Shown here: positions 22,762 through 34,162 of the stretch, one piece after another
Layout: each line of letters starts with the position of its first letter
How positions within the stretch are numbered: the first letter of the stretch is position 1
Assembly (NCBI GenBank): GCA_018606725.1
Contig: JAGYID010000024.1
Coordinates: 1-42,270, forward strand
Origin: Acidobacteriota bacterium
Lineage (GTDB): Bacteria > Acidobacteriota > Polarisedimenticolia > Gp22-AA2
DNA length: 42,270 nucleotides
Direction of reading: 5' to 3'
Position numbers and translations under genes: made by a program
Notes under the pieces: model-generated
The model's input: only the letters and a program-made list of their open reading frames with translations
Databases searched by the model: none
What the model was told of the DNA's origin: nothing

Positions 22762-22790
22762 TTGACACACGTTGTCGCTGACCGTATATG
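22762..22790 (+). promoter_or_regulatory. Sigma-70-type promoter of the subtilase gene
   Basis: A perfect -35 TTGACA (22762-22767), a 17-base spacer and TATATG (22785-22790). It lies about 82 bases before the ATG at 22872, in the gap shared with the divergent kinase gene. Confidence 0.65.
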
Positions 22791-22871
22791 AGGGCCATTG
22801 CGCTCCGTAAAACTGAGCCCGTGCTGCTTGCCGTTTCCGGAATCCGTGCCTCCAAACATCGGGAGGAGACC

Positions 22872-24650
22872 ATGCAGAGAAAAGCCGTCCTCGCCGCACT
22901 CGTGCTCGGTTTCGCCTGCCTGGCTCCCGGCAGTACCTCCGGCGTGGGACCCGCCGTAAGAATCAGCGTCTTCGTCCGCTTCGCTCCCCGCGCCGACCGG
23001 CAAGCGGTGCGCGCGCTGGTGGCTTCGCACGGCGCGCGGGTGCGCTACGAGTACACGCTCCTGCCCGATCTCATCAACGTCCGCGGCTTCCCCGAGGCGG
23101 CCGTGTGGGCGCTGGAGCGGGCTCCGGGCGTCTTGGAAGTGGCGCCGGACAGGGCTTTCGACCTTGATCTGGCGCAGTCGGTGCCGCTCATCCAGGCGAC
23201 TGCGGCGCAGATCGGGAGCATTGACGCGGATGGGCTCGTGGAGACCGGGGCACTGACCCGGGTGTGCGTCGTGGACACCGGGGTCGACAACACGTTCGCC
23301 GGGTACAAGGATCGCATCGTGGCGCAGTGCGACTTCGCCAATGACGATCGCAGCGCCGACGACGACCGCAACCATGGGAAGCATGTGGCGGCGGTGATCG
23401 CTTCCGCGGATCCGACCTACAAAGGCGTTGCTCCCAAGGCGCTGTTGATGGCAGCCAAGGTGTTTCGCGCCTCAGGGTCGGGCGATGAGTCCGACATCTT
23501 GGCGGGGATCGACTGGTGCGCGAACCTCGGCGAGGCGTCCTACACCGCGCCGGCATTCTGCCCCAATGGGCTGCAGCCTCAGGCGCGACCCGCCCACGTG
23601 ATCAACCTCAGCCTCGGCGGCGGCGCCTTCTCCGGTGCATGCGATGGTGACACGCTGGCGAGCAAGGCCAACGCTGCGGCCGCCAAGGGGATCGTCGTGG
23701 TGGCCTCGTCCGGGAACGATTGCCTGAAGTCGAGCATGGGGACTCCCGCGTGCGCCTCGGGGGTGATCGCGGTCGGCGCCACCTATGACGCGCCGATCTC
23801 GGGCACCTTCCTCACCGGGAACGGCAATTGCTGCACGGAGAGCAACCCTGTGACCGACCAGGTCGCCTGCTACAGCGATGCGAGCAGCATGCTCGACCAT
23901 CTGGCGCCCGGATCGGTGATCTCGACGAACCTCTCCGTCTCGGGGGTTTTTGGTACCAGCTTCGCAGCCCCGCACACCTCCGGCGTGGCGGCTCTTCTCC
24001 TCCAACGCGGTCGCGCGCTGACGCCGGCGCAGGTGGCATCGGCCATGAACACGACGCTCGACCCGGTGGTCAGGGGGGTGAGCACCGAGCGTGGCCGCCT
24101 GAATGCGCGGCGGGCCCTGGCCACCCTGCCGAGCCCCTGCCTGCCCGACGGGACCTGCGGCGCCGGCGAGGCCAGGGCGTGCTGCGCGGACATCGGGTGC
24201 GACGGCGATGCCGATGGCGCCTACGGCGACTGCGACAACTGCCCCGCGGTCTCCAACCCGTCGCAGGGTGACTTCAACCGGGACGGTCCCGGGGACGCCT
24301 GCTCCGACGTCGATGGCGACGGGGACCTGGACGCCAACGACAATTGCATCATGGTGTCGAATCCGAGCCAGGTGAACTCCGACGCGGACGGCTTTGGGGA
24401 CGCCTGCGACAACTGCACCGCCGTGGCCAACCCGGACCAACGCGATTCCGACGGCGACCGCCTGGGCGATGCCTGCGACAACTGCCCAAGCCTCCGGAAC
24501 CCCGACCAGACCGACACCGACGGCGACAGGATCGGTGACGTCTGCGACATCTGTCCGGACGGCCCCTGCCCGGCGCCCGAGCCCGGGGGTCCCACGCCGA
24601 ATCCTCAGCCCATAGACGACCCACCAGGCCCCAGGAAGATCGTCGGTTAG
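22872..24650 (+). CDS. Secreted subtilisin-like serine protease with thrombospondin type 3 repeats
   Basis: Encodes 592 residues. Signal peptide (1-24), an inhibitor-I9-like propeptide (about 28-100) and an S8 catalytic domain. The triad is visible: Asp135 (VVDTGVD), His168 (NHGKHVA) and Ser363 ([11 protein letters not shown]), with oxyanion Asn282 (SSGND). The usual HGTHV reads HGKHV, a rare Thr-to-Lys change next to the catalytic His. Many cysteines (CANLG, CPNG, CACASG, CC) suggest disulfides. From about 445 to 575 there are four or so Asp-rich repeats ([15 protein letters not shown] type), calcium-binding thrombospondin type 3 repeats. No membrane anchor follows. GGAGG lies 5 bases before the chosen ATG; the upstream in-frame ATG at 22788 overlaps the promoter and is rejected. 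Confidence 0.93.
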
Positions 24651-24700: not shown

Positions 24701-25783
24701 TCAGCGCGGCCCGATCGACGCCGCCGCGCAGCAGACGCCGCGCGGGATCGGCTTGCCGTGCGGGCAGGCCTCCGGATGGCCGAGGAAGCCGCAGATCGAC
24801 TCGGTCATCACGGGGGACAGGATGTGCTCGAAGAAGCAGGCCTCCTCCTCGACCACCGCCTCGTGCATCTGGAAGGTGTTCGAGAACAGCGTCTCGGCCA
24901 GGCGGTGGCGGCGGATCAGGCTCTCGGCGCGTTTCTTCCCGGCGTCGCTGAAGCGCGGTTCCGGCGTCTCCAACAAAATACCGCGCTCCCGCATCCGTCC
25001 CAGGACCGTCGGCGTCGCCAGACGGGCGCCGAGGGCGCAGATCGCGTGGGCCGCCGGATCCCCCTCCGACACCAGCCACAGGTACTCCAGCACTTCGTCG
25101 ATCGACTCCTCGTCCTGGGCCTGGGTCAGGAACTCGCCGGCCACCCGGCCGTGCTCGAGCTGCACTTGCCGGCCGGCGCGCCGGCCGACCGCCAGGTCGT
25201 GGGTGACCATGACGATCGTCTGGCCGCGCTCGTGCATCGCCTGGAACAACTCGATGACCGCCCGCTCATTGGCGGCATCGAGCGACCCCGTCGGCTCGTC
25301 GGCCAGGATCAGCTTCGGCCGGTTGATCAGGGCCCGCGCGATGCAGACGCGCTGCTTCTCGCCCCCGGACAGGTCACCCGGAAGATGACGCAGGCGGTGT
25401 CCCAGCCCGACCTCCTGCAGGGCCCGCGCTGCTTCCTGCTCGTCCGGCATGCTGTGCAGATACTGGGCGAGCATGACATTCTCGAGGGCATTGAGATACG
25501 GGATGAGATGGAACTGCTGGAACACCAGGCCGACGCCTTCGCGGCGATAACGGATCAGCTCGGGCCGGGACATCGCCGCCAGGTCGATGCCATCGACGAT
25601 CACCCGCCCGTCGTCGGGGCGGTCGAGGCCGCCGAGAAGATTCAGCGCCGTGGTCTTCCCCGACCCGGATGGCCCCATGACCGCGACCCACTCGCCGCGC
25701 GCGATTTCAAGGTTGACCTTGTCGAGCGCCGTGACCTCCTCGTTGTAGCGGCGCGTGACGTTCTCGAAGCGGATGAAGCTCAT
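24701..25783 (-). CDS. ABC transporter ATPase fused to a DtxR-type iron-repressor module
   Basis: Encodes 360 residues in two parts. Residues 1-220 are a MacB/LolD-type ATPase: Walker A GPSGSGKTT (37-45), Q-loop at 89-90, signature LSGGEKQ (138-144), Walker B LILADEP (158-164), H-loop His195. Residues 227-352 read as a DtxR family protein: a winged-helix (IDEVLEYLWLVSEG ... TPTVLGRMRERGIL ... FSDAGKKRAESL), RHRLAE (His293, Glu297) and ACFFEH (Cys316, Glu319, His320), then GHPEACPHGKPIP and a final Cys pair. His293 to Cys316 is 23 residues, exactly as His79 to Cys102 in DtxR. The DtxR His98 position is Glu312, and Met10 appears to be Val. GGGAG is 7 bases before the ATG. It is the last gene of the iron operon, 35 bases after the permease stop. 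Confidence 0.93.
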   Translation of the reverse strand: MSFIRFENVTRRYNEEVTALDKVNLEIARGEWVAVMGPSGSGKTTALNLLGGLDRPDDGRVIVDGIDLAAMSRPELIRYRREGVGLVFQQFHLIPYLNALENVMLAQYLHSMPDEQEAARALQEVGLGHRLRHLPGDLSGGEKQRVCIARALINRPKLILADEPTGSLDAANERAVIELFQAMHERGQTIVMVTHDLAVGRRAGRQVQLEHGRVAGEFLTQAQDEESIDEVLEYLWLVSEGDPAAHAICALGARLATPTVLGRMRERGILLETPEPRFSDAGKKRAESLIRRHRLAETLFSNTFQMHEAVVEEEACFFEHILSPVMTESICGFLGHPEACPHGKPIPRGVCCAAASIGPR

Positions 25784-25818: not shown

Positions 25819-26994
25819 CTAATCACCCCGCAACGCCTCCGCCGGCTGGATCGACAGCACGCGGCGCAGCGGCACCAGGACCGCGACGGCGCACACCAGG
25901 AGCGACGCCGCCAGCACCCAGGGGATGGTCGAGGCGCGGGCGGCGATCGCGGCGCCGAACAGGCGGCCGCCGATCAGGCGCGCCGACACCGCGCCGAGCA
26001 CGAGTCCCAGCCCGGCGCCGACCAGCCCGAGCAGGCCGACCTCCCCCAGGAACATCGCCAGGATGGCGCCGTCCCCGGCGCCGAGCGAGCGCTGCAGGCC
26101 GATCTCCGGGGCGCGCTCCACGACCATCCCCATCAAGGTCATCACCAGGCACAGCGCCGCCAGCAGGAGGACGACGACGGTCATCAGGGTCATCATCCGA
26201 TCGAGCCGCCCGAGCAATGCGCCCTGGGCGGCCGCGATCTGCCGCAGCGGCCGCGCCGAGGCGCCCGGCAGGGCCGCCGTCAACGCGGCGGCGGCGCGCT
26301 CCGCGGCCGCCATCCCGCCGTCAATGACGAACGCCGCCAGCGACAGCCTGCCCGATTGGCCGGTCGCGGCCTGCAGGGTCGCAAGCGGCAGGAACGCCTG
26401 ATCGTCCTCCGCCTCCCCGGTGCCGACCACCCCGGCAACGCGCGCCCTGAGGAAGGTGCCGCCCACCCGCAGCGTGATCCCCGACCCGGGATGGAGGCCG
26501 GCGCGCCGCGCCAGCGATGCCCCGACCAGGACCGGTGGTGGAACCCCGGGCGCATCGGCGCCGCTCGCCGGCCATTCCCCCTCGACCCGCCACGACGGGT
26601 TGATGCGCCGCAGCGCGGCGAAGTCGGACCCTGCGATCGCCGCGGGGACGGAGCCGGCGTTGGGGGCGGCGATGGTGCCTGACGCCAGCAGGTACGGCGC
26701 CCAGCGTCCTTCCGAGGCCCCGGCGGCGGAGCGCACCGCCGCCTCGTCCAGGCTGGCCGGTGCCCCGTCCACCGGCCGGGCGCCGGCAGGGGCGACGATG
26801 AGGTTCGGTCCGTAAGCGCGCAACTCGCGTGACATCTTGGCCACCAGGTCGGCGCGGATGTTGAGGATTGCCGCGGTCACCGTGGCACCGACGGTGATCG
26901 CCAGCAGGGCCAGCAGGAACGAGCCGCCGCGCAACCGGAACGATCGGAGCAGCAGCCGTACGGCCATCCTGCCGCGCACCGGATCAAAGCGCAC
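25819..26994 (-). CDS. ABC transporter permease, MacB/FtsX type (second of pair)
   Basis: Encodes 391 residues. Topology is that of MacB-type permeases: an N-terminal helix (about 22-45, SFLLALLAITVGATVTAAIL), a periplasmic domain of about 200 residues, and three C-terminal helices with the FtsX signature around VVERAPEIGLQRSLGAGDGAI, whose EIGL segment contacts the ATPase. Ends with PAEALRGD, typical of the family. It starts at GTG 26994, inside the last 11 bases of the upstream permease gene, so the two are translationally coupled; an ATG ten codons on (26967) is an alternative. In P19/FTR1-type iron loci, such as the one in Campylobacter jejuni, two permeases of this kind accompany the FTR1 protein. 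Confidence 0.9.
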   Translation of the reverse strand: MRFDPVRGRMAVRLLLRSFRLRGGSFLLALLAITVGATVTAAILNIRADLVAKMSRELRAYGPNLIVAPAGARPVDGAPASLDEAAVRSAAGASEGRWAPYLLASGTIAAPNAGSVPAAIAGSDFAALRRINPSWRVEGEWPASGADAPGVPPPVLVGASLARRAGLHPGSGITLRVGGTFLRARVAGVVGTGEAEDDQAFLPLATLQAATGQSGRLSLAAFVIDGGMAAAERAAAALTAALPGASARPLRQIAAAQGALLGRLDRMMTLMTVVVLLLAALCLVMTLMGMVVERAPEIGLQRSLGAGDGAILAMFLGEVGLLGLVGAGLGLVLGAVSARLIGGRLFGAAIAARASTIPWVLAASLLVCAVAVLVPLRRVLSIQPAEALRGD

Positions 26995-28315
26995 GCAGCA
27001 CCTCGAAGGGGCGGTACGCCAGGATGCGCCGCACCGGCACCACGCAGCCCAGGAGCGTGATCAGCAGGGCCAGGGCGATCGACAGCGGAACCGACAGCGG
27101 CCGGATCGCCACCGGCGCGCCGAACACCGACGCGGAGATGAACCGCGCCAGGAGCGCGCCCGCCGCCGTGCCGGCGATACCGCCGAGGAGACCGAGCCCG
27201 GCGGCTTCGGCCAGGAACAGTCCGACGATTCTCGGGTTGCCGGCGCCGAGCGCCTTCAGCAGGCCGATCTCGGAGCGCCGCTCCAGGACGCTCGTCGTCA
27301 GGGCGCTGGTCACCGTCAGCGCCGTGCCGAGCGAGGCGAGCAGGGCGATGAGCGCCATCAGCCCGGAGATGCGGCGCAGCACCGTCCCCTCCGTGTCGGC
27401 AACGCGGCGCACGACGCGCGCCTCCCCCGCCGGCAGGGCGCGGTTCAGCTCGTAGGCGATCGATGACACGAACGGCGTGCAGGTCCAGCGCTCGAACTCC
27501 TCCGGCGGCAGATCGCGCGGGTTGGCGCCCAGGCGGGCGTACACGGCAGTCTCGGGAGTCGTCAGCGCCCGCACCGCGATACGTGACACCCGGCCGCGCA
27601 GCCCCGACAGGTTCCAGGCGATCTCGATCGGCGCGACGAATGCCATGTCCTCGTCGCCGCCGGCCGACAGCACCCCGGTGACGAAAACTCCCAGGCTGCG
27701 TCCGCCGGCCGCGATGTCGACACGCTGACCGGCCTCCAGGCCGAGTCCGGCGGCCAGGGTCTGTCCGACGAGAACCTCGGGCGCGCCCGCCGGCGCCCCG
27801 GCACCTCCTGCCGGCGGCGCCGGTGCGGGGCGCTCCGCGGGCCAGCGCCCCTCGACGGTCCACAGCGGATTGAGCAACCGCTGCCCGGTGACGAAGGATT
27901 CCGGGGCGCCGCTGTCGCCCGGCCCCGGTACCGGGCGCTCGAACCAGGTGCCGCGCAGCAGCGCCGTCCGGCCGCGCACCGTGACCGGCACGTCGAGCAC
28001 CGGCGCGAACGCCAGGATGTTGTTCTTCCAGAAATTGTCCTTGACCTTGATCAGATCGGCGGCGTCGAGATAGGAGGGCAGCCGCAGCCCCGAGACGTCC
28101 TCTCCGCCGATCAGCGCCGGCGCGCTGCCGCCGGCCGGCAGGATGACGAGATTGGCGCCGAAGGCATTCAACTCGCCGCGCATCCGGTCGCCGACGTCGA
28201 GGGCGATGTCGACGAGCGCCGAGGCGGCCGCCGTCCCGAGCGCCACCGCGGCCAGGATGATCGCCTTGCGGCGCTTGCGGCGCAGCAGCGAGTCCCTGAT
28301 GATCCGCAGGAACAT
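26984..28315 (-). CDS. ABC transporter permease, MacB/FtsX type (first of pair)
   Basis: Encodes 443 residues. N-terminal membrane helix after a basic stretch (LLRRKRRKAIILAAVALGTA), a large periplasmic domain (about 45-310) and three C-terminal helices. The FtsX coupling motif reads LERRSEIGLLKALGAGNPRIVGLFL, and the end is YRPFEVLRAL. The periplasmic domain includes a Pro/Ala/Gly-rich stretch (PAPAPPAGGAGAPAGAP). The ATG at 28315 is preferred over an upstream GTG-type start because it lies 7 bases after the FTR1 gene stop with GAGG 6 bases before it. Partner of the next permease and of the ATPase-DtxR fusion. Inferred role: part of the energised step of iron import or of iron handling at the membrane. 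Confidence 0.9.
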   Translation of the reverse strand: MFLRIIRDSLLRRKRRKAIILAAVALGTAAASALVDIALDVGDRMRGELNAFGANLVILPAGGSAPALIGGEDVSGLRLPSYLDAADLIKVKDNFWKNNILAFAPVLDVPVTVRGRTALLRGTWFERPVPGPGDSGAPESFVTGQRLLNPLWTVEGRWPAERPAPAPPAGGAGAPAGAPEVLVGQTLAAGLGLEAGQRVDIAAGGRSLGVFVTGVLSAGGDEDMAFVAPIEIAWNLSGLRGRVSRIAVRALTTPETAVYARLGANPRDLPPEEFERWTCTPFVSSIAYELNRALPAGEARVVRRVADTEGTVLRRISGLMALIALLASLGTALTVTSALTTSVLERRSEIGLLKALGAGNPRIVGLFLAEAAGLGLLGGIAGTAAGALLARFISASVFGAPVAIRPLSVPLSIALALLITLLGCVVPVRRILAYRPFEVLRAL

Positions 28316-28322
28316 CGGCGCC

Positions 28323-29615
28323 TCAGCTCCCCGGCGGCGCAGTCGCCCCCGCACCGCGGAAGGTCCCGGCCTGCGCGCGAAGATCCGCGAGCCCGATCAC
28401 CAGGTCCTGCCCTTCCATGCGGTGCGGCAGCGGCAGCGGATTGCAGCCGCCGCCGATCCCGACGGTGGCCGGGTTGATGTCGGCGGCGCACGCGAGGCAG
28501 ACGAGACGCCCCCCGGTCATGATGTAGCCGCCCGGCCCGCACACCTGGCAGGCGTCGAAGCCGGCCCGCCACCGGTCGCCGACCCGGATCACGAAAAAGC
28601 GCACCACCGTGTCGTCGACCAGGACGCCATAGCGGTGCAGGCGATCCGTCGCCAGGGCGGCGGTCATCACCCTCACGTTGTCCCCGTCCGGCTGCAGCAT
28701 CTGCGGCGGATCGATGCCGCGCGGCAGCCGCGTGAAGGCGAACGACACCGTCAGCGCCGCGACCGCGACGATGCCGGCGGCGGCGAACGACCGCCGCCAC
28801 AGACGATCGCGCCGCAGCCGTGCCAGCGCCAGGCGGCGCTCCGGTCCCTCCAGGCCCTGCGCCTGCGCGACCCGCTCCCGGTCGGCCCGCCCCGGGATCA
28901 GCAGCGCGATCAGCGGCAACGCCAGGAGCGACACGATGACGATGGCATCGCTCTTGACGATCGGTCCGATGAGCCGCATCTCCTCCCGCCCGATCGGGAT
29001 CGAGCCGCGCTCGCCCAGCTCGTGCAGCCCGCCGATGAGCAGCTGCGCGGCCAGCATGAACAGCACGATGGCGGTGACCTTGAAGAAGCGGGCCAGGTCG
29101 ACGCGCGCCGTGCCGCGCACGAACGACACGCCGAACAGCACCGCGACGCCGAGCCCGATGAGGCCTCCGAGGAATGACAGCAGCGCCTCGGTCGTCAGGT
29201 TGACGGCGGCCAGGAAGATGACCGTCTCGACCCCTTCGCGCAGCACCAGGATCGCCGTCAGGGCGAACAGACCGGCGGCCGCCGCGCCGCTGCCGCCGCG
29301 CCCGGCGATCACCTCGACCTTCGACTCGATCTCCCGCTTCAACCCCCTGGCGGCGCGCAGCATCCAGACGACGAGGGTGATGACCAGCGCCGCGCCGAGG
29401 ATCATCAGCCAGCCCTCGTAGGCCTCCTCCGATACATGCAGAGCCACGAACAGGGCGGCGCAGGCGATGCTGGCGAGGATCCCGGCCGCCAGGCCACCGT
29501 ACACCGCCCGCTCCAGGCCGGCGCGCCCGGTGCGACGCAAATACAGGATGATGATGCCGACGACGAGCGCCGCTTCGATGCCTTCCCGCAGGGTGATCAC
29601 CAGCGACTGGAACAT
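28323..29615 (-). CDS. High-affinity iron permease FTR1 fused to a DUF2318 domain
   Basis: Encodes 430 residues. The FTR1 part has seven or so membrane helices and both REGxE iron-binding motifs: REGIE (10-14) and REGVE (126-130). The C-terminal DUF2318 domain (about 320-415) has five cysteines in the family pattern: C356-x2-C359, C373-x2-C376 and C391 in GGGCNPLPL. These probably bind iron or another cofactor on the periplasmic side. The same fusion is seen in Cj1658-type proteins of P19 iron-uptake loci. Here no P19 gene is adjacent. It starts 3 bases after the Fur-family gene stop, in the same operon. The gene context argues for iron uptake rather than general oxidase-linked transport. Confidence 0.94.
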   Translation of the reverse strand: MFQSLVITLREGIEAALVVGIIILYLRRTGRAGLERAVYGGLAAGILASIACAALFVALHVSEEAYEGWLMILGAALVITLVVWMLRAARGLKREIESKVEVIAGRGGSGAAAAGLFALTAILVLREGVETVIFLAAVNLTTEALLSFLGGLIGLGVAVLFGVSFVRGTARVDLARFFKVTAIVLFMLAAQLLIGGLHELGERGSIPIGREEMRLIGPIVKSDAIVIVSLLALPLIALLIPGRADRERVAQAQGLEGPERRLALARLRRDRLWRRSFAAAGIVAVAALTVSFAFTRLPRGIDPPQMLQPDGDNVRVMTAALATDRLHRYGVLVDDTVVRFFVIRVGDRWRAGFDACQVCGPGGYIMTGGRLVCLACAADINPATVGIGGGCNPLPLPHRMEGQDLVIGLADLRAQAGTFRGAGATAPPGS

Positions 29616-29618
29616 GTC

Positions 29619-30065
29619 TCAGCCCCGCCGGCGGCGGCGCCGCCCGGCGCAGGCGGCGCAGTGGCCGCGAATCTGGTGCGTGTGGCCGGTCATGACGAAG
29701 CCGCGGCGGCGGCAGACCTCGTCCTGGATGCGCTCGACGTCATGGCTCTCGAACTCCAGGATCAGGCCGCAGTCGGTGCAGATCAGATGATCGTGGTGGT
29801 GCCGCCCGACCATCAGCTCGTAGCGCGCCTGGCCATGGGCCATCTCGAGCTTGTGGATGATCCCCGCCTCGATCAGCCTCGGCAGGTTGCGGTACAGCGT
29901 GGCGCGCGACACGGGGTGACCGGCGCGGCGGAAGCCCGCCAACAGCTGGTCCACGTCGAAGTGACCGCGCGTCCCCAGCACCTGGTCGAGGATGACGCGG
30001 CGCTCGCGCGTCATCTTGAGGCGGTTCCTGCTGAGGAAGTCCGCGAATCGTTCGATCGCCTGCAC
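29619..30065 (-). CDS. Fur-family metal-dependent transcriptional regulator
   Basis: Encodes 148 residues. The winged-helix N-terminal domain (about 10-85) has the recognition helix PVSRATLYRNLPRLIEAGII. The dimerisation domain holds the metal-site cluster RHHHDHLICTDCG (His89-91, His93, Cys96, Cys99) and GHTHQIRGHCAAC (His128, His130, Cys136, Cys139). Four cysteines in two CxxC pairs suit a structural zinc. The C terminus is a run of arginines (141-147), which is unusual. Given its place as first gene of an FTR1 operon, iron is the likely metal, though Zur or PerR functions cannot be excluded by sequence. GTG start. A Fur-box-like dyad lies 47 bases upstream, so autoregulation is expected. 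Confidence 0.93.
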   Translation of the reverse strand: MQAIERFADFLSRNRLKMTRERRVILDQVLGTRGHFDVDQLLAGFRRAGHPVSRATLYRNLPRLIEAGIIHKLEMAHGQARYELMVGRHHHDHLICTDCGLILEFESHDVERIQDEVCRRRGFVMTGHTHQIRGHCAACAGRRRRRRG

Positions 30066-30111
30066 GCCGGCGCCCCCCGGGAGACGGTCCGGGCGCCCGG
30101 CCGGCTCCTAG

Positions 30112-30128
30112 TTGCAACTCAGTCTCAA
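30112..30128 (-). promoter_or_regulatory. Fur-box-like operator of the iron operon
   Basis: On the minus strand it reads TTGAGACTGAGTTGCAA, an inverted repeat of two 8-base arms around a central G, with six of eight pairs matching. It resembles the classical Fur dyad in its TTGAGA and CAA ends. It abuts the -10 element, so a bound Fur dimer would block polymerase. Confidence 0.65.
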
Positions 30129-30156
30129 TTATGACCGGGGGTCGCGCCGCTGTCAA
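30128..30156 (-). promoter_or_regulatory. Near-consensus promoter of the fur-FTR1-ABC operon
   Basis: On the minus strand: TTGACA (30156-30151), 17-base spacer, CATAAT (30133-30128). The -35 is perfect and the -10 matches five of six. The -35 overlaps the stop codon of the upstream MFS gene (30153-30155). The start point would fall near 30121, inside the Fur-box-like dyad. Confidence 0.75.
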
Positions 30157-31358
30157 ACCGGCCGTCGGCGCTCCTCCGGCGGCGGATTGCGGCGGCAGGC
30201 CGCGTAGAGCAGCACGTCATAGGCGATCTTCATTCCCGAGCCGATGACGAGCGGGGTGGCGAGCGACAGGCTCTGCATGAACAGCCCGGCAAACGACGGG
30301 GCGACCGCCCAGGCCCCGACCCGCACGATGTTGGTGACCCCCGAGGCGATGGTGCGCTCCTCCGGGCGGACCATCCCCATGACGTACGACTGGCGCGTCG
30401 GGACATCCATCTCGACCAGCCCCTCGCGCAGCAGGAACAGCAGCGCCGCCACCGGGAAGCTGGGCGCCCAGGCGACGGTGACCATCAGCAGGCTCGAGGG
30501 GATGTGGGTGAACACCATCGTATTGACCAGGCCGATCCGCCGCGCCAGCCAGGCCGCGGCGAGGTGGGACAGGGCGTTGGCGAGGCGGGCCAGGAAGAAC
30601 AGCGGGCCGATGGCGCTCTCCCCCACGCCGAAGGTCTTGTAGAAGAAGAAGCTCAGCATGGCCGTGGTCATGAAGCCGCCCGCCAGGCTGTCGAGCGCGA
30701 ACAGGCTGCCGATGGTCCAGAGCCTGCGCCGGGTCTCCGGGGTGATCCGGCACGCTGCCGCGCCGGCCCCGTTCTCCACCGCCGGACTCAGCTTGAGGTA
30801 GAGCGCGGCGGTGAGCAGGAACAGGAGAACGTAGACTCCGAGGGTCAGGCGGAGCGATGGCAGCTCGCCGATGTCCCCGACCTGCCGGAGCAGCGCCGGC
30901 AACCCGGCCAGCAGACCCCCGAGGGCATGCCCCAGGTCCTGCAGGACGTTGTACCAGGCGAACACGGTGGTGCGGCGGGCATCGCCGGCCGTCGCCGGCA
31001 GGATCGCCTGCTCGATGATGAGCGCCGCGCCCCGGTCCCGTCCCATGCCGTTGACCATCCCGAGGAAGGCGGTGGCGCCGACGACGAACGGGTCGGCAGC
31101 GACAGCGAAGGCTGCCCCGCCGAGCGCCGACAGCAGGGCCAGGAGCAGAAGCGAGGTCCGTCGCCCGAGCCGGTCGGCGGAGAGCGTCGCCACGACGGCG
31201 GCGAGCGCCCCGCCCAGGAGACCGGCTCCGATCACGTAGCCGATGCGCGCCGGGTCGAACTCCAGGCGTGCGAGGTAAATCCCGAGAAGGACCCCCACCG
31301 TGCCGGTGGCGAGCGCCCGGAGGAAGGTGGCGGCGAACAGAATGTCGCGGTCGCTCAC
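30153..31358 (-). CDS. Major facilitator superfamily transporter
   Basis: Encodes 401 residues with about 12 membrane helices. The MFS motif A between helices 2 and 3 reads ADRLGRRTS (loop after VATLS). Other features include the conserved GMGRDRGAALIIEQAILP segment, FAWYNVLQDLG, and a mid-protein cytoplasmic loop (ITPETRRRLW). The start at GTG 31358 is supported by GGGAG 7 bases upstream; an open extension of 38 codons further upstream has no ribosome-binding site and would overlap the divergent promoter. It lies on the same strand as the iron operon and its stop overlaps that operon's -35. The substrate is unknown; a link to iron is suggested only by position. Confidence 0.88.
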   Translation of the reverse strand: MSDRDILFAATFLRALATGTVGVLLGIYLARLEFDPARIGYVIGAGLLGGALAAVVATLSADRLGRRTSLLLLALLSALGGAAFAVAADPFVVGATAFLGMVNGMGRDRGAALIIEQAILPATAGDARRTTVFAWYNVLQDLGHALGGLLAGLPALLRQVGDIGELPSLRLTLGVYVLLFLLTAALYLKLSPAVENGAGAAACRITPETRRRLWTIGSLFALDSLAGGFMTTAMLSFFFYKTFGVGESAIGPLFFLARLANALSHLAAAWLARRIGLVNTMVFTHIPSSLLMVTVAWAPSFPVAALLFLLREGLVEMDVPTRQSYVMGMVRPEERTIASGVTNIVRVGAWAVAPSFAGLFMQSLSLATPLVIGSGMKIAYDVLLYAACRRNPPPEERRRPV

Positions 31359-31405
31359 TGACGGACTCCCGTGGGGCGCTGATCTTACAGGGGCGCTGAT
31401 TCTAA

Positions 31406-31435
31406 TTGACAAGTCCGCGAAGCGTGGCATATAAG
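31406..31435 (+). promoter_or_regulatory. Sigma-70-type promoter of the large subtilase gene
   Basis: TTGACA (31406-31411) and TATAAG (31430-31435), with an 18-base spacer, sit 103 bases before the ATG at 31538 in the gap shared with the divergent MFS gene. The leader of about 95 bases shows no obvious riboswitch. Confidence 0.65.
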
Positions 31436-31537
31436 CGGTGACATCGCTTGCCGGCTGCAATGTCACAACCAACCGATCGACCGTCCGGGCGGTATGCCGT
31501 GACGAAGCGCAACCTGACGCGCGGGAGGGAGACCCCG

Positions 31538-34162
31538 ATGAGTAGGCACGCGCAATTCGGGCTGGGTGTTGTCTGTCTGTCCCTGGTCGTCCTGTCCATG
31601 GGAGCGGTGCGGCGGGCGCCGGGGGACGTGAGCCGCGGGCTGCCCGCCGGCGACGGACCGCTGGCCGCCGGTACCATCACGACGCCGACTCTCTGGTTCG
31701 TCGAGATGCAGAGCGCCCCGCTGGCCGAGACCAAGACCAACACCAGGGCCGAGGAGTCGAAGTACATCCAGAAGCTGCGCAAGGAGAAGCGGGCGTTTCG
31801 CGTCGCCGCCGCAGCGGCCGGGATCGGATTCCGGCAGCGCTATTCCTACGACGTGCTGTGGAACGGGGTGGCGCTCACGGTCGAGGCGCGCGATGTGCTG
31901 GCGCTGTCGCGACTTCCGGGGGTGGCCAACCTCTACCCGGTGGTCGCCACCGACGCGCCGGAGCCGGCCGTCGCCTACTCCCCCGGCGACAGCGCGCCGG
32001 AGCTGTTCACCGCCATCACCATGACCGGTGTTGTGGAGGCCCACTCCTCCGGCTGGACCGGCGCCGGCGTCCGGGTGGCGATCATGGACACCGGTCTCGA
32101 CTACAACCATCCCGATCTCGGCGGCGGCTTCGGCCCCGGCTACCGGGTCGTCGGCGGATATGACTTCGTCGGCGACGCCTACAATTCGAGCGATCCGGAC
32201 CACACCACGCCGCACCCCGATCCCGACCCGATGGACTGCGCCGGTCACGGCACGCACGTCGCCGGCATCGTCGGCGCCAGAGGCACGATCACCGGTGTCG
32301 CTCCGGATGCCACCCTGCGGGCTTACAAGGTCTTCGGATGCACCGGCACGACCGACACCGACGTCATGCTGGCCGCCATGGAGCGGGCCCTGGCGGACGG
32401 CAACCAGGTCCTCAACATGAGCATCGGGTCGGCGTTCAGCTGGCCGCAGTACCCGGCGGCGCGCGGCGCCGACAACCTGGTCAACCGGGGCGTCGTGGTG
32501 GTCGCCTCGGCCGGCAACGCTGGCGCCAACGGGCTGTACTCGACGAGCGCCCCCGGCGTCGGCAAGAAGACCATCGGCACCGCTTCGGTCGACAACAACC
32601 GGGTCCACGTGCCGGCCTTCGCCCGGTCGGATGGATCGCTGGTCGGCTACGCGCCGATGTCGTTCTCCCCCGCTTTCCCGACCTCGGGCACCGTTCCGCT
32701 GGTCGACGCCGGGCGCGGCTGCACGATCGACGGGCCGCTGCCGCCGGCGGTCGCCGGCAGCGTCGCGTTGATGGTGCGCGGCACCTGCTCGTTCCGGGAG
32801 AAGGCGACCAACGCCCGCAATGCCGGCGCCGTGGCGGCATTGATTTACAACAATAGCCCCGGCGTCTTCTTCGGCACTCTCGGCTCCGCCTTCGACATGC
32901 CGACGGCGGGGCTGTCGCGGGAGGACGGGCTGGCGCTCGTGGCGGCGCTGCCGCTCAGCATCACCTGGACGGCGATGCTCACCGACGCCCCGAATGCCAG
33001 CGGCGGCCTGATCAGCAGCTTCTCCGCCTTCGGCTTGAGCCCCGACCTGTCGCTCAAACCCGACCTGTCCGCCCCCGGCGGGCTGATCTTCTCCACCCTG
33101 CCACTGGCCCAGGGGGGCTACGGGCTGAACAGCGGCACGTCGATGGCGGCGCCGCACGTGGCCGGCGCGGCGGCGCTGCTGCTGCAGGCGCGGCCGCGCA
33201 CCAACAGCCAGACGGCGCGCGATATCTTGATGAACAGCGCCCGGCCCGGGCTGTGGTTCGGCAGCCCGGCGCTCGGCCTGCTGGAGAACGCGCACCGTCA
33301 GGGAGCGGGGCTGCTCGACATCGACGCCGCCATCAGGTCGACGACGAAGGTCACGCCCGGCAAAATCGCCCTCGGTGAAACCGAGAACCACCCGATCACC
33401 AGCGCGATCACCGTGGAGAACAACGGCAGCACCGAGGTGACCTACGACCTCACCAACGCCCCGGCGCTGGCGACCGGCCCGAACACGTTCGCGGTGAGGT
33501 TTTTCTCGGCCGATCCGCGGGTGGCATTTGCGGGGCCGCAGGTGACACCGCCGGCGAATGAATGGGATCCCTACACGCTCAAGGTGCCGGCCGGCGGCTC
33601 CACGACCGTCAATGTCACGGTGACCGAGTCGCCGTTCCTGGCGAACGGCGGGATCTTCGGCGGCTACGTCGTGCTGACGCCGCTGGGCGGCGGGCGCGCC
33701 TCGCGCGTGCCGTACGCCGGCTACCGGGGCGATTACCAGTCGATTCTGGTCCTGAACCCGGCGGCGTCCACGTTCGGCAACCCGTTGCTCCGGCCGGACA
33801 AGAACCTCGGCGCCAGCGGTCCGGTCACCATCGATCCGACGGCGAAGGAGACGGCCAAGGTCTTCTTCCACCTCGACCACCAGGTCCGGCGGCTGCGGAT
33901 CGAGGCGTTCGATTATGCCTCCGGCCGCTCCTACGGCCGGCTGGGCGAGATCGGCTACGTCGAGCGCCATCCGACGCCCGACGCGTTCAGCTACCTTGAA
34001 TGGGATGGCCGGACGAAGTTCGGTCTCCTGCCGGACGGGGCTTACTTCCTGCGTCTGTCGATCCAGAAGGCGCTCGGCGAGGACAACCCGGGCGACTGGG
34101 AGTCCTGGGACTCGCCGGTGATCACGATTTCCGGATCGACCGGCGGCGAACCGCTGCCCTAG
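31538..34162 (+). CDS. Secreted subtilisin-family protease with PA insert
   Basis: Encodes 874 residues. Signal peptide (1-22), inhibitor-I9-like propeptide (about 50-140) and an S8 domain with Asp184 (IMDTGLD), His237 (GHGTHVAG) and Ser535 (SGTSMAAPHVAG); Asn327 (SAGN) is the oxyanion residue. A protease-associated (PA) domain is inserted between His and Ser at about 385-475 (GCTIDGPLPP ... GTCSFREKATNARNAGAVAALIYNN). After the catalytic domain, a beta-rich region (from about 600) includes a segment like the Fn3-type domain of lactocepin/C5a peptidases, and a final YLEWDGRTKFGLLPDGAYFLRLSIQ repeat-like stretch. No cell-wall anchor. GGAGG (31524-31528) is 9 bases before the ATG. Confidence 0.93.
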   Translation: MSRHAQFGLGVVCLSLVVLSMGAVRRAPGDVSRGLPAGDGPLAAGTITTPTLWFVEMQSAPLAETKTNTRAEESKYIQKLRKEKRAFRVAAAAAGIGFRQRYSYDVLWNGVALTVEARDVLALSRLPGVANLYPVVATDAPEPAVAYSPGDSAPELFTAITMTGVVEAHSSGWTGAGVRVAIMDTGLDYNHPDLGGGFGPGYRVVGGYDFVGDAYNSSDPDHTTPHPDPDPMDCAGHGTHVAGIVGARGTITGVAPDATLRAYKVFGCTGTTDTDVMLAAMERALADGNQVLNMSIGSAFSWPQYPAARGADNLVNRGVVVVASAGNAGANGLYSTSAPGVGKKTIGTASVDNNRVHVPAFARSDGSLVGYAPMSFSPAFPTSGTVPLVDAGRGCTIDGPLPPAVAGSVALMVRGTCSFREKATNARNAGAVAALIYNNSPGVFFGTLGSAFDMPTAGLSREDGLALVAALPLSITWTAMLTDAPNASGGLISSFSAFGLSPDLSLKPDLSAPGGLIFSTLPLAQGGYGLNSGTSMAAPHVAGAAALLLQARPRTNSQTARDILMNSARPGLWFGSPALGLLENAHRQGAGLLDIDAAIRSTTKVTPGKIALGETENHPITSAITVENNGSTEVTYDLTNAPALATGPNTFAVRFFSADPRVAFAGPQVTPPANEWDPYTLKVPAGGSTTVNVTVTESPFLANGGIFGGYVVLTPLGGGRASRVPYAGYRGDYQSILVLNPAASTFGNPLLRPDKNLGASGPVTIDPTAKETAKVFFHLDHQVRRLRIEAFDYASGRSYGRLGEIGYVERHPTPDAFSYLEWDGRTKFGLLPDGAYFLRLSIQKALGEDNPGDWESWDSPVITISGSTGGEPLP

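Follow-up and report, generated by a model that had tools for sequence, protein, structure and literature searches.

Gene Content and Promoter Architecture of the Locus

The window, i.e., the whole stretch of 42,270 nucleotides that was analyzed, is contig C4 of a genome of 3.7 Mb in 235 contigs, one of the eight genomes of family f1 (soil Acidobacteriota, Gp22). On its minus strand, a transporter gene of the MFS type is followed by fur and by four further genes that encode an FTR1-type iron permease, two FtsX/MacB-type permeases and an ABC ATPase (Table 1). On either side of the iron operon and the MFS gene there is a subtilisin-family protease (22788-24650 and 31448-34162, both on the plus strand), and a relative of the second one also adjoins MFS in loci L041 and L043.

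Table 1. Features of the iron operon, its promoter region and two related sites of the same genome
Feature	Position	Strand	Basis and remarks
-35 hexamer TTGACA	30151..30156	(-)	direct reading and consensus scan; in 8/8 family genomes
-10 hexamer CATAAT	30128..30133	(-)	direct reading and consensus scan
Dyad TTGAGACTGAGTTGCAA, probable Fur operator	30112..30128	(-)	direct reading, conservation, operator comparison
MFS transporter gene, upstream	30153..31472	(-)	PF07690 2.8e-25; start codon uncertain
fur, 148 aa, GTG start, first operon gene	29619..30065	(-)	PF01475 6e-29
FTR1-type iron permease with C-terminal FtrD-like (DUF2318-type) domain	28323..29615	(-)	PF03239 1e-33, PF10080 9.1e-22
FtsX/MacB-type permease 1	26984..28354	(-)	PF02687, PF12704
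FtsX/MacB-type permease 2	25819..26994	(-)	PF02687, PF12704
ABC ATPase with C-terminal DtxR-like metal-sensor fold, last operon gene	24701..25783	(-)	PF00005 1.5e-34, PF02742 2.7e-24
Second Fur-family gene, PerR-like, directly ahead of a peroxiredoxin ORF	L002:1393-1932 (own genome, C211)		
Dyad copy upstream of apbE	L037:8017-8033 = C16:24516-24532 (own genome)		

The first-pass annotation had described a minus-strand promoter of the form TTGACA-N17-CATAAT, with its -35 over the MFS stop codon, and a 17-base dyad abutting the -10. On direct reading of the letters, both descriptions are exact: the two hexamers are separated by 17 bases, the MFS stop codon TGA (30155-30153) falls within the -35 hexamer, and the dyad and the -10 overlap by one base, the first T of TTGAGACTGAGTTGCAA being the last T of CATAAT. 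A consensus scan of positions 28000-32500 returns a single promoter-like site, this one, with 11 of 12 consensus positions, compared to a mean of 0.1 sites in shuffled sequence. With its two near-consensus hexamers and a spacer of 17 bases, inside the range of 16-18, the promoter fits the housekeeping-sigma type. In the same scan, the stretch from MFS to fur shows no terminator-like site. The dyad itself is imperfect, since only six of its eight half-site positions pair, and the half-sites are unlike each other (TTGAGACT vs TTGCAACT).

From the position of the -10 hexamer, transcription is predicted to start at about 30121, i.e., inside the dyad, which would give a leader of approximately 56 nt ahead of the GTG codon of fur. 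Part of the dyad would then be transcribed, and for this reason the dyad could be thought to work as a hairpin of the leader RNA and not as a DNA operator. Such a start, on the other hand, leaves only one half of the dyad in the RNA, and the leader folds no better than its shuffles (z 0.49). Folding at shuffle level rules the hairpin out as a candidate, and its probability is regarded as negligible.

Conservation of the Promoter and of the Dyad

TTGACA, a spacer, a -10 hexamer of the form [CG]ATAAT and the dyad are present ahead of fur in all eight family genomes, the spacer being 17 bases long in six of them and 18 in the remaining two. Upstream of fur, the mean pairwise identity is 92% within the dyad, 44% within the spacer (calculated from the six genomes with equal spacers) and 38% after the dyad (over up to 20 bases). 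The MFS gene lies next to fur in seven of the eight genomes, and in six of these seven its stop codon is located inside the -35 hexamer, the end of the MFS frame in the window having been set by hand for this count. MFS was not found adjoining fur in the eighth genome, G002, nor in the regions fetched from families f2 and f3. G002 keeps the promoter and the dyad without MFS, and f2 shows a related promoter and box, also without MFS; both observations support an independent promoter.

These findings bear on the proposal of the first-pass annotation that the operon has its own switch, separate from MFS read-through. The operon very probably possesses a promoter of its own, which persists where MFS is missing; the separation is less certain, because the lack of a terminator-like site between the two genes makes read-through from MFS possible. 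This lack, together with the adjacency of MFS and fur in most of the family, is also what favors a reading in which promoter-like and dyad-like strings occur by chance at the end of MFS and the operon is simply read from the MFS gene. It is hardly credible, given that promoter and dyad are kept in every family genome while the spacer diverges, that they persist where MFS is absent, and that only 0.1 promoters are expected in 4.5 kb.

All four genomes of the sister family f2 have a classical-looking box at fur, TTGAGAATGATTATCAA, TTGAGAACGATTATCAA or TTGAGAATGATTCGCAA, and in three of them this box lies further below a -10-like hexamer (by eye). A search with the f2 form gives matches in all four f2 genomes and in none of the eight f1 genomes; in G011 (f2), one extra site of this form is found just upstream of a second fur-like gene. 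The sample was widened to the 30 fur-family loci returned by a search over 60 genomes, own genome included. Within 200 nt upstream, 24 of these loci carry a dyad that agrees with the consensus at 10 or more of 13 positions, and no dyad of this quality is present over the same distance in six distant loci (L026, L028-L032). The boxes in relatives grade from the dyad of the window into TTGAGAATGATTATCAA- and TTGAAAATGATTTTCAA-type forms. Across 358 kb of loci, 28 places reach at least 11 of 13 positions of TTGAGANTNANTNTCAA, compared to a mean of 3.9 for permuted-letter palindromes (sd 4.0, maximum 21 in 100); as these loci were picked for fur or iron genes, the figures express an enrichment near such genes and not a genome-wide rate.

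Comparison with Known Fur Operators

Two versions of the feoAB1 Fur operator of Magnetospirillum gryphiswaldense are given in PMC4506495, the footprinted one and one used in crystallization. The dyad agrees with the operator cores at 14 of 17 positions (footprinted) and 13 of 17 (second version), and among all 17-mers of the window it matches both of them best. The feoAB1 operator is likewise an inverted repeat with an iron-uptake gene downstream. The element of the window differs from it in the phylum, in its TTGAGACT and TTGCAACT half-sites, in the overlap with the -10 and in that its operator role is predicted. Among known kinds, the window promoter comes closest to Fur-repressed promoters whose operator covers the -10/+1 region. 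In a literature search for Fur boxes in Acidobacteria, none of the 20 matches listed out of 341 contains the word Acidobacteria.

Because the binding of Fur to the dyad is a prediction, and because the two half-sites differ, it could be argued that the dyad is real and belongs to an unrelated regulator, its likeness to a Fur box being incidental. This is considered quite improbable: the dyad sits at fur itself, with iron genes downstream, the sites of the relatives grade into boxes of the types mentioned above, and the match to a footprinted Fur operator is close. Conservation in the family supports the assignment of the dyad as a putative Fur operator and of the promoter as the operon's own. 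It is very likely that the element as a whole constitutes the promoter and operator of a fur-FTR1-FtsX-FtsX-ABC operon, where iron-loaded Fur would bind the dyad and repress transcription when iron is plentiful.

In the proposed mechanism, a housekeeping-sigma promoter, TTGACA-N17-CATAAT, would drive the five genes. When cytoplasmic iron is plentiful, iron-loaded Fur produced from the first gene would bind the dyad over the -10/+1 region and keep RNA polymerase off, so that less Fur and less FTR1-type importer would be made; under iron scarcity, the dyad would be vacant and the operon would be expressed. The sequence, its conservation, the occurrence at two targets and the gene content of the operon are shown directly. 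We infer the start site, the binding by the encoded Fur, the iron dependence and the sign of the regulation. As a switch, this is an ordinary iron switch of an already known kind.

The apbE Gene as a Second Target

The exact 17-mer of the dyad occurs once in its own genome. At up to three mismatches, four places are found vs one for the reversed pattern, so that chance matches have to be expected at such looseness. The copies comprise one with two mismatches just upstream of apbE and two with three mismatches (L035 and L036). A close variant of the dyad stands ahead of apbE in seven of the eight family genomes.

Searching these eight genomes with TTGAGAYTSWGTYKCAR at no more than one mismatch gives 21 rows, which correspond to 17 distinct places (palindromes count twice); the reversed TTGAGAYTSWGTYKCAR pattern gives none. 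Eight of the places lie ahead of fur and seven upstream of apbE, those of the relatives being L054, L057, L059, L062, L066 and L067. The other two are L068, where a contig end repeats the sequence that stands ahead of apbE in that genome, and a site on G007:C6. G003 has no apbE site within one mismatch of TTGAGAYTSWGTYKCAR. The apbE promoters combine TTGACA with TAGAGT, or in one case TACAGT, and their dyad lies approximately 12 bp below the -10 (by eye). This indicates that the dyad need not keep a set distance from the -10, and the earlier description of the spacing at fur as ideal for repression is overstated.

With the same type of operator, apbE would be at least the second member of a small Fur regulon. 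For the Gp22 Acidobacteriota, mostly uncultured soil bacteria, the present data point to a specific Fur operator, conserved at both the fur operon and apbE, which may serve as a basis for predicting the iron regulon of this group.

Downstream of apbE in the own genome come a porin-like ORF to which Pfam gives no clear family, a protein with a weak FMN_bind match and a small unassigned protein; the four genes perhaps form a flavin-linked iron-reduction operon. Separately, the site on G007:C6 (L056:989-1005) is a perfect palindrome, TTGAGACTCTGTCTCAA, upstream of an outer-membrane-protein-like ORF (by eye), and could be a further Fur target.

The Encoded Fur Protein and Its Paralogue

The closest solved chains to the encoded protein are those of Campylobacter jejuni Fur. 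The metal-site residues, namely HHHDH, CxxC and the later E/H positions, align with those of C. jejuni and E. coli Fur (by eye). None of the NCBIfam cut-offs for Fur, PerR or Zur is reached, the best Fur model giving 76.8 bits vs a cut-off of 200, and among these models those for Fur score highest. Consequently, the name Fur rests on the relationship to C. jejuni Fur, on the operon and on the operator.

Two PF01475 genes are present in the own genome, the encoded Fur and the PerR-like gene (the labels are ours). In the other seven family genomes (63-100% complete, so that a paralogue may have been missed), a single Fur-family gene was found, which is this Fur. It is conceivable that the dyad is the operator of the PerR-like paralogue, in which case the operon would answer to peroxide or another metal and not to iron via its own Fur. 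The position of the paralogue, ahead of a peroxiredoxin ORF, is in line with this idea, and in B. subtilis fur itself is a PerR target. The seven genomes in which the paralogue was not found nevertheless keep the dyad, the upstream region of the paralogue shows no dyad comparable to TTGAGACTGAGTTGCAA, and the second target is apbE and no peroxide gene. Binding of the paralogue to the dyad is, for these reasons, unlikely, and we assign this possibility a small probability; the encoded Fur is preferred as the regulator.

The Iron-Uptake Operon

The gene order Fur-FTR1-FtsX-FtsX-ABC is kept in families f1, f2 and f3 as far as the contigs reach. FTR1 and two FtsX permeases also stand next to the ATPase fusion (described below) in seven of seven further genomes from five families, picked for carrying this fusion (L117-L123). 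In six of the seven, Fur-box-like dyads (at least 11 of 13 positions) either directly precede FTR1 or lie between it and a divergently oriented fur; in L120, no dyad of this quality was found ahead of the FTR1 operon.

The operon fits the FTR1-P19 type in its FTR1, its DUF2318/FtrD-like part, its two permeases and its ATPase. The C. jejuni FTR1-P19 system (genes 1649-1656; PMC6083913) shares these components and a Fur box with the window. In contrast to that system, FTR1 and the FtrD-like part form one protein in the window, the operon begins with fur, its ATPase has a DtxR-like domain attached, and a domain scan of the five operon genes detects neither P19 nor a thioredoxin. According to PMC6083913, whose text does not mention DtxR, it is not known which substrates the corresponding permeases and ATPase of C. 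jejuni handle.

A DtxR-like Domain in the ABC ATPase

Within the operon, the unusual part is the ATPase with its DtxR fold, which deserves a separate look. At the sequence level, residues 215-353 match solved DtxR/IdeR proteins (best 2.8e-12). A model of the C-terminal part, calculated from 25 sequences, has a mean pLDDT of 93.7 and gives Foldseek TM values of approximately 0.7 to IdeR, DtxR and DR2539; a full-length model built on 10 sequences was of low quality (mean pLDDT 61, with the C-terminus below 50) and was set aside. As modeled, the C-terminus is a complete two-domain DtxR-like fold with the metal-binding/dimerization domain. E83, C102, E105 and H106 of this part are invariant in the 25 aligned sequences and align with the like-numbered DtxR residues. 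Judging from the roles of the latter, they are presumably metal ligands. The motif H122-P...C126-P-H128...G135-x-C137 is also invariant in the 25 sequences, the place of H79 is occupied by Q in four of them, and that of H98 by E in the window protein. The modeled part is thus similar to the DtxR/IdeR/MntR repressors in its two-domain fold and ligand-equivalent positions, and differs from them in being joined to an ABC ATPase and in that its sensor role is putative.

Besides Fur at the promoter, the operon may possibly contain a second iron sensor, the DtxR-like part of the importer's ABC ATPase, a two-sensor proposal that we regard as tentative and rather less probable than not. Iron bound by this second sensor would act on the ATPase directly and provide a fast feedback below the level of transcription. 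With its own metal-sensor fold, the ATPase offers a case in which direct metal feedback on a transporter can be tested. No ABC-DtxR fusion was described in the paper titles or abstract openings found by literature search, which is no claim of absence.

The window ATPase is the only PF02742 match in its own genome. Within the phylum, 146 of 297 genomes match the domain at 1e-10; a good many of these matches are weaker and may represent ordinary DtxR proteins. In several acidobacterial families, ABC-DtxR fusions follow FTR1/FtsX genes, and all six further fusions scanned by Pfam combine ABC_tran with PF02742 (L092, L093, L096, L099, L102, L111). The three other proteins scanned by Pfam (L094, L095 and L101, from G045, G016 and G044, respectively) combine PF02742 with FeoA and are stand-alone proteins. 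If the two-sensor proposal is true, one DtxR-like module would appear as if attached to two unrelated iron importers, through an ABC ATPase and through FeoA. Two of the three DtxR-FeoA genes are located no more than 3 kb from fur (L124, L125).
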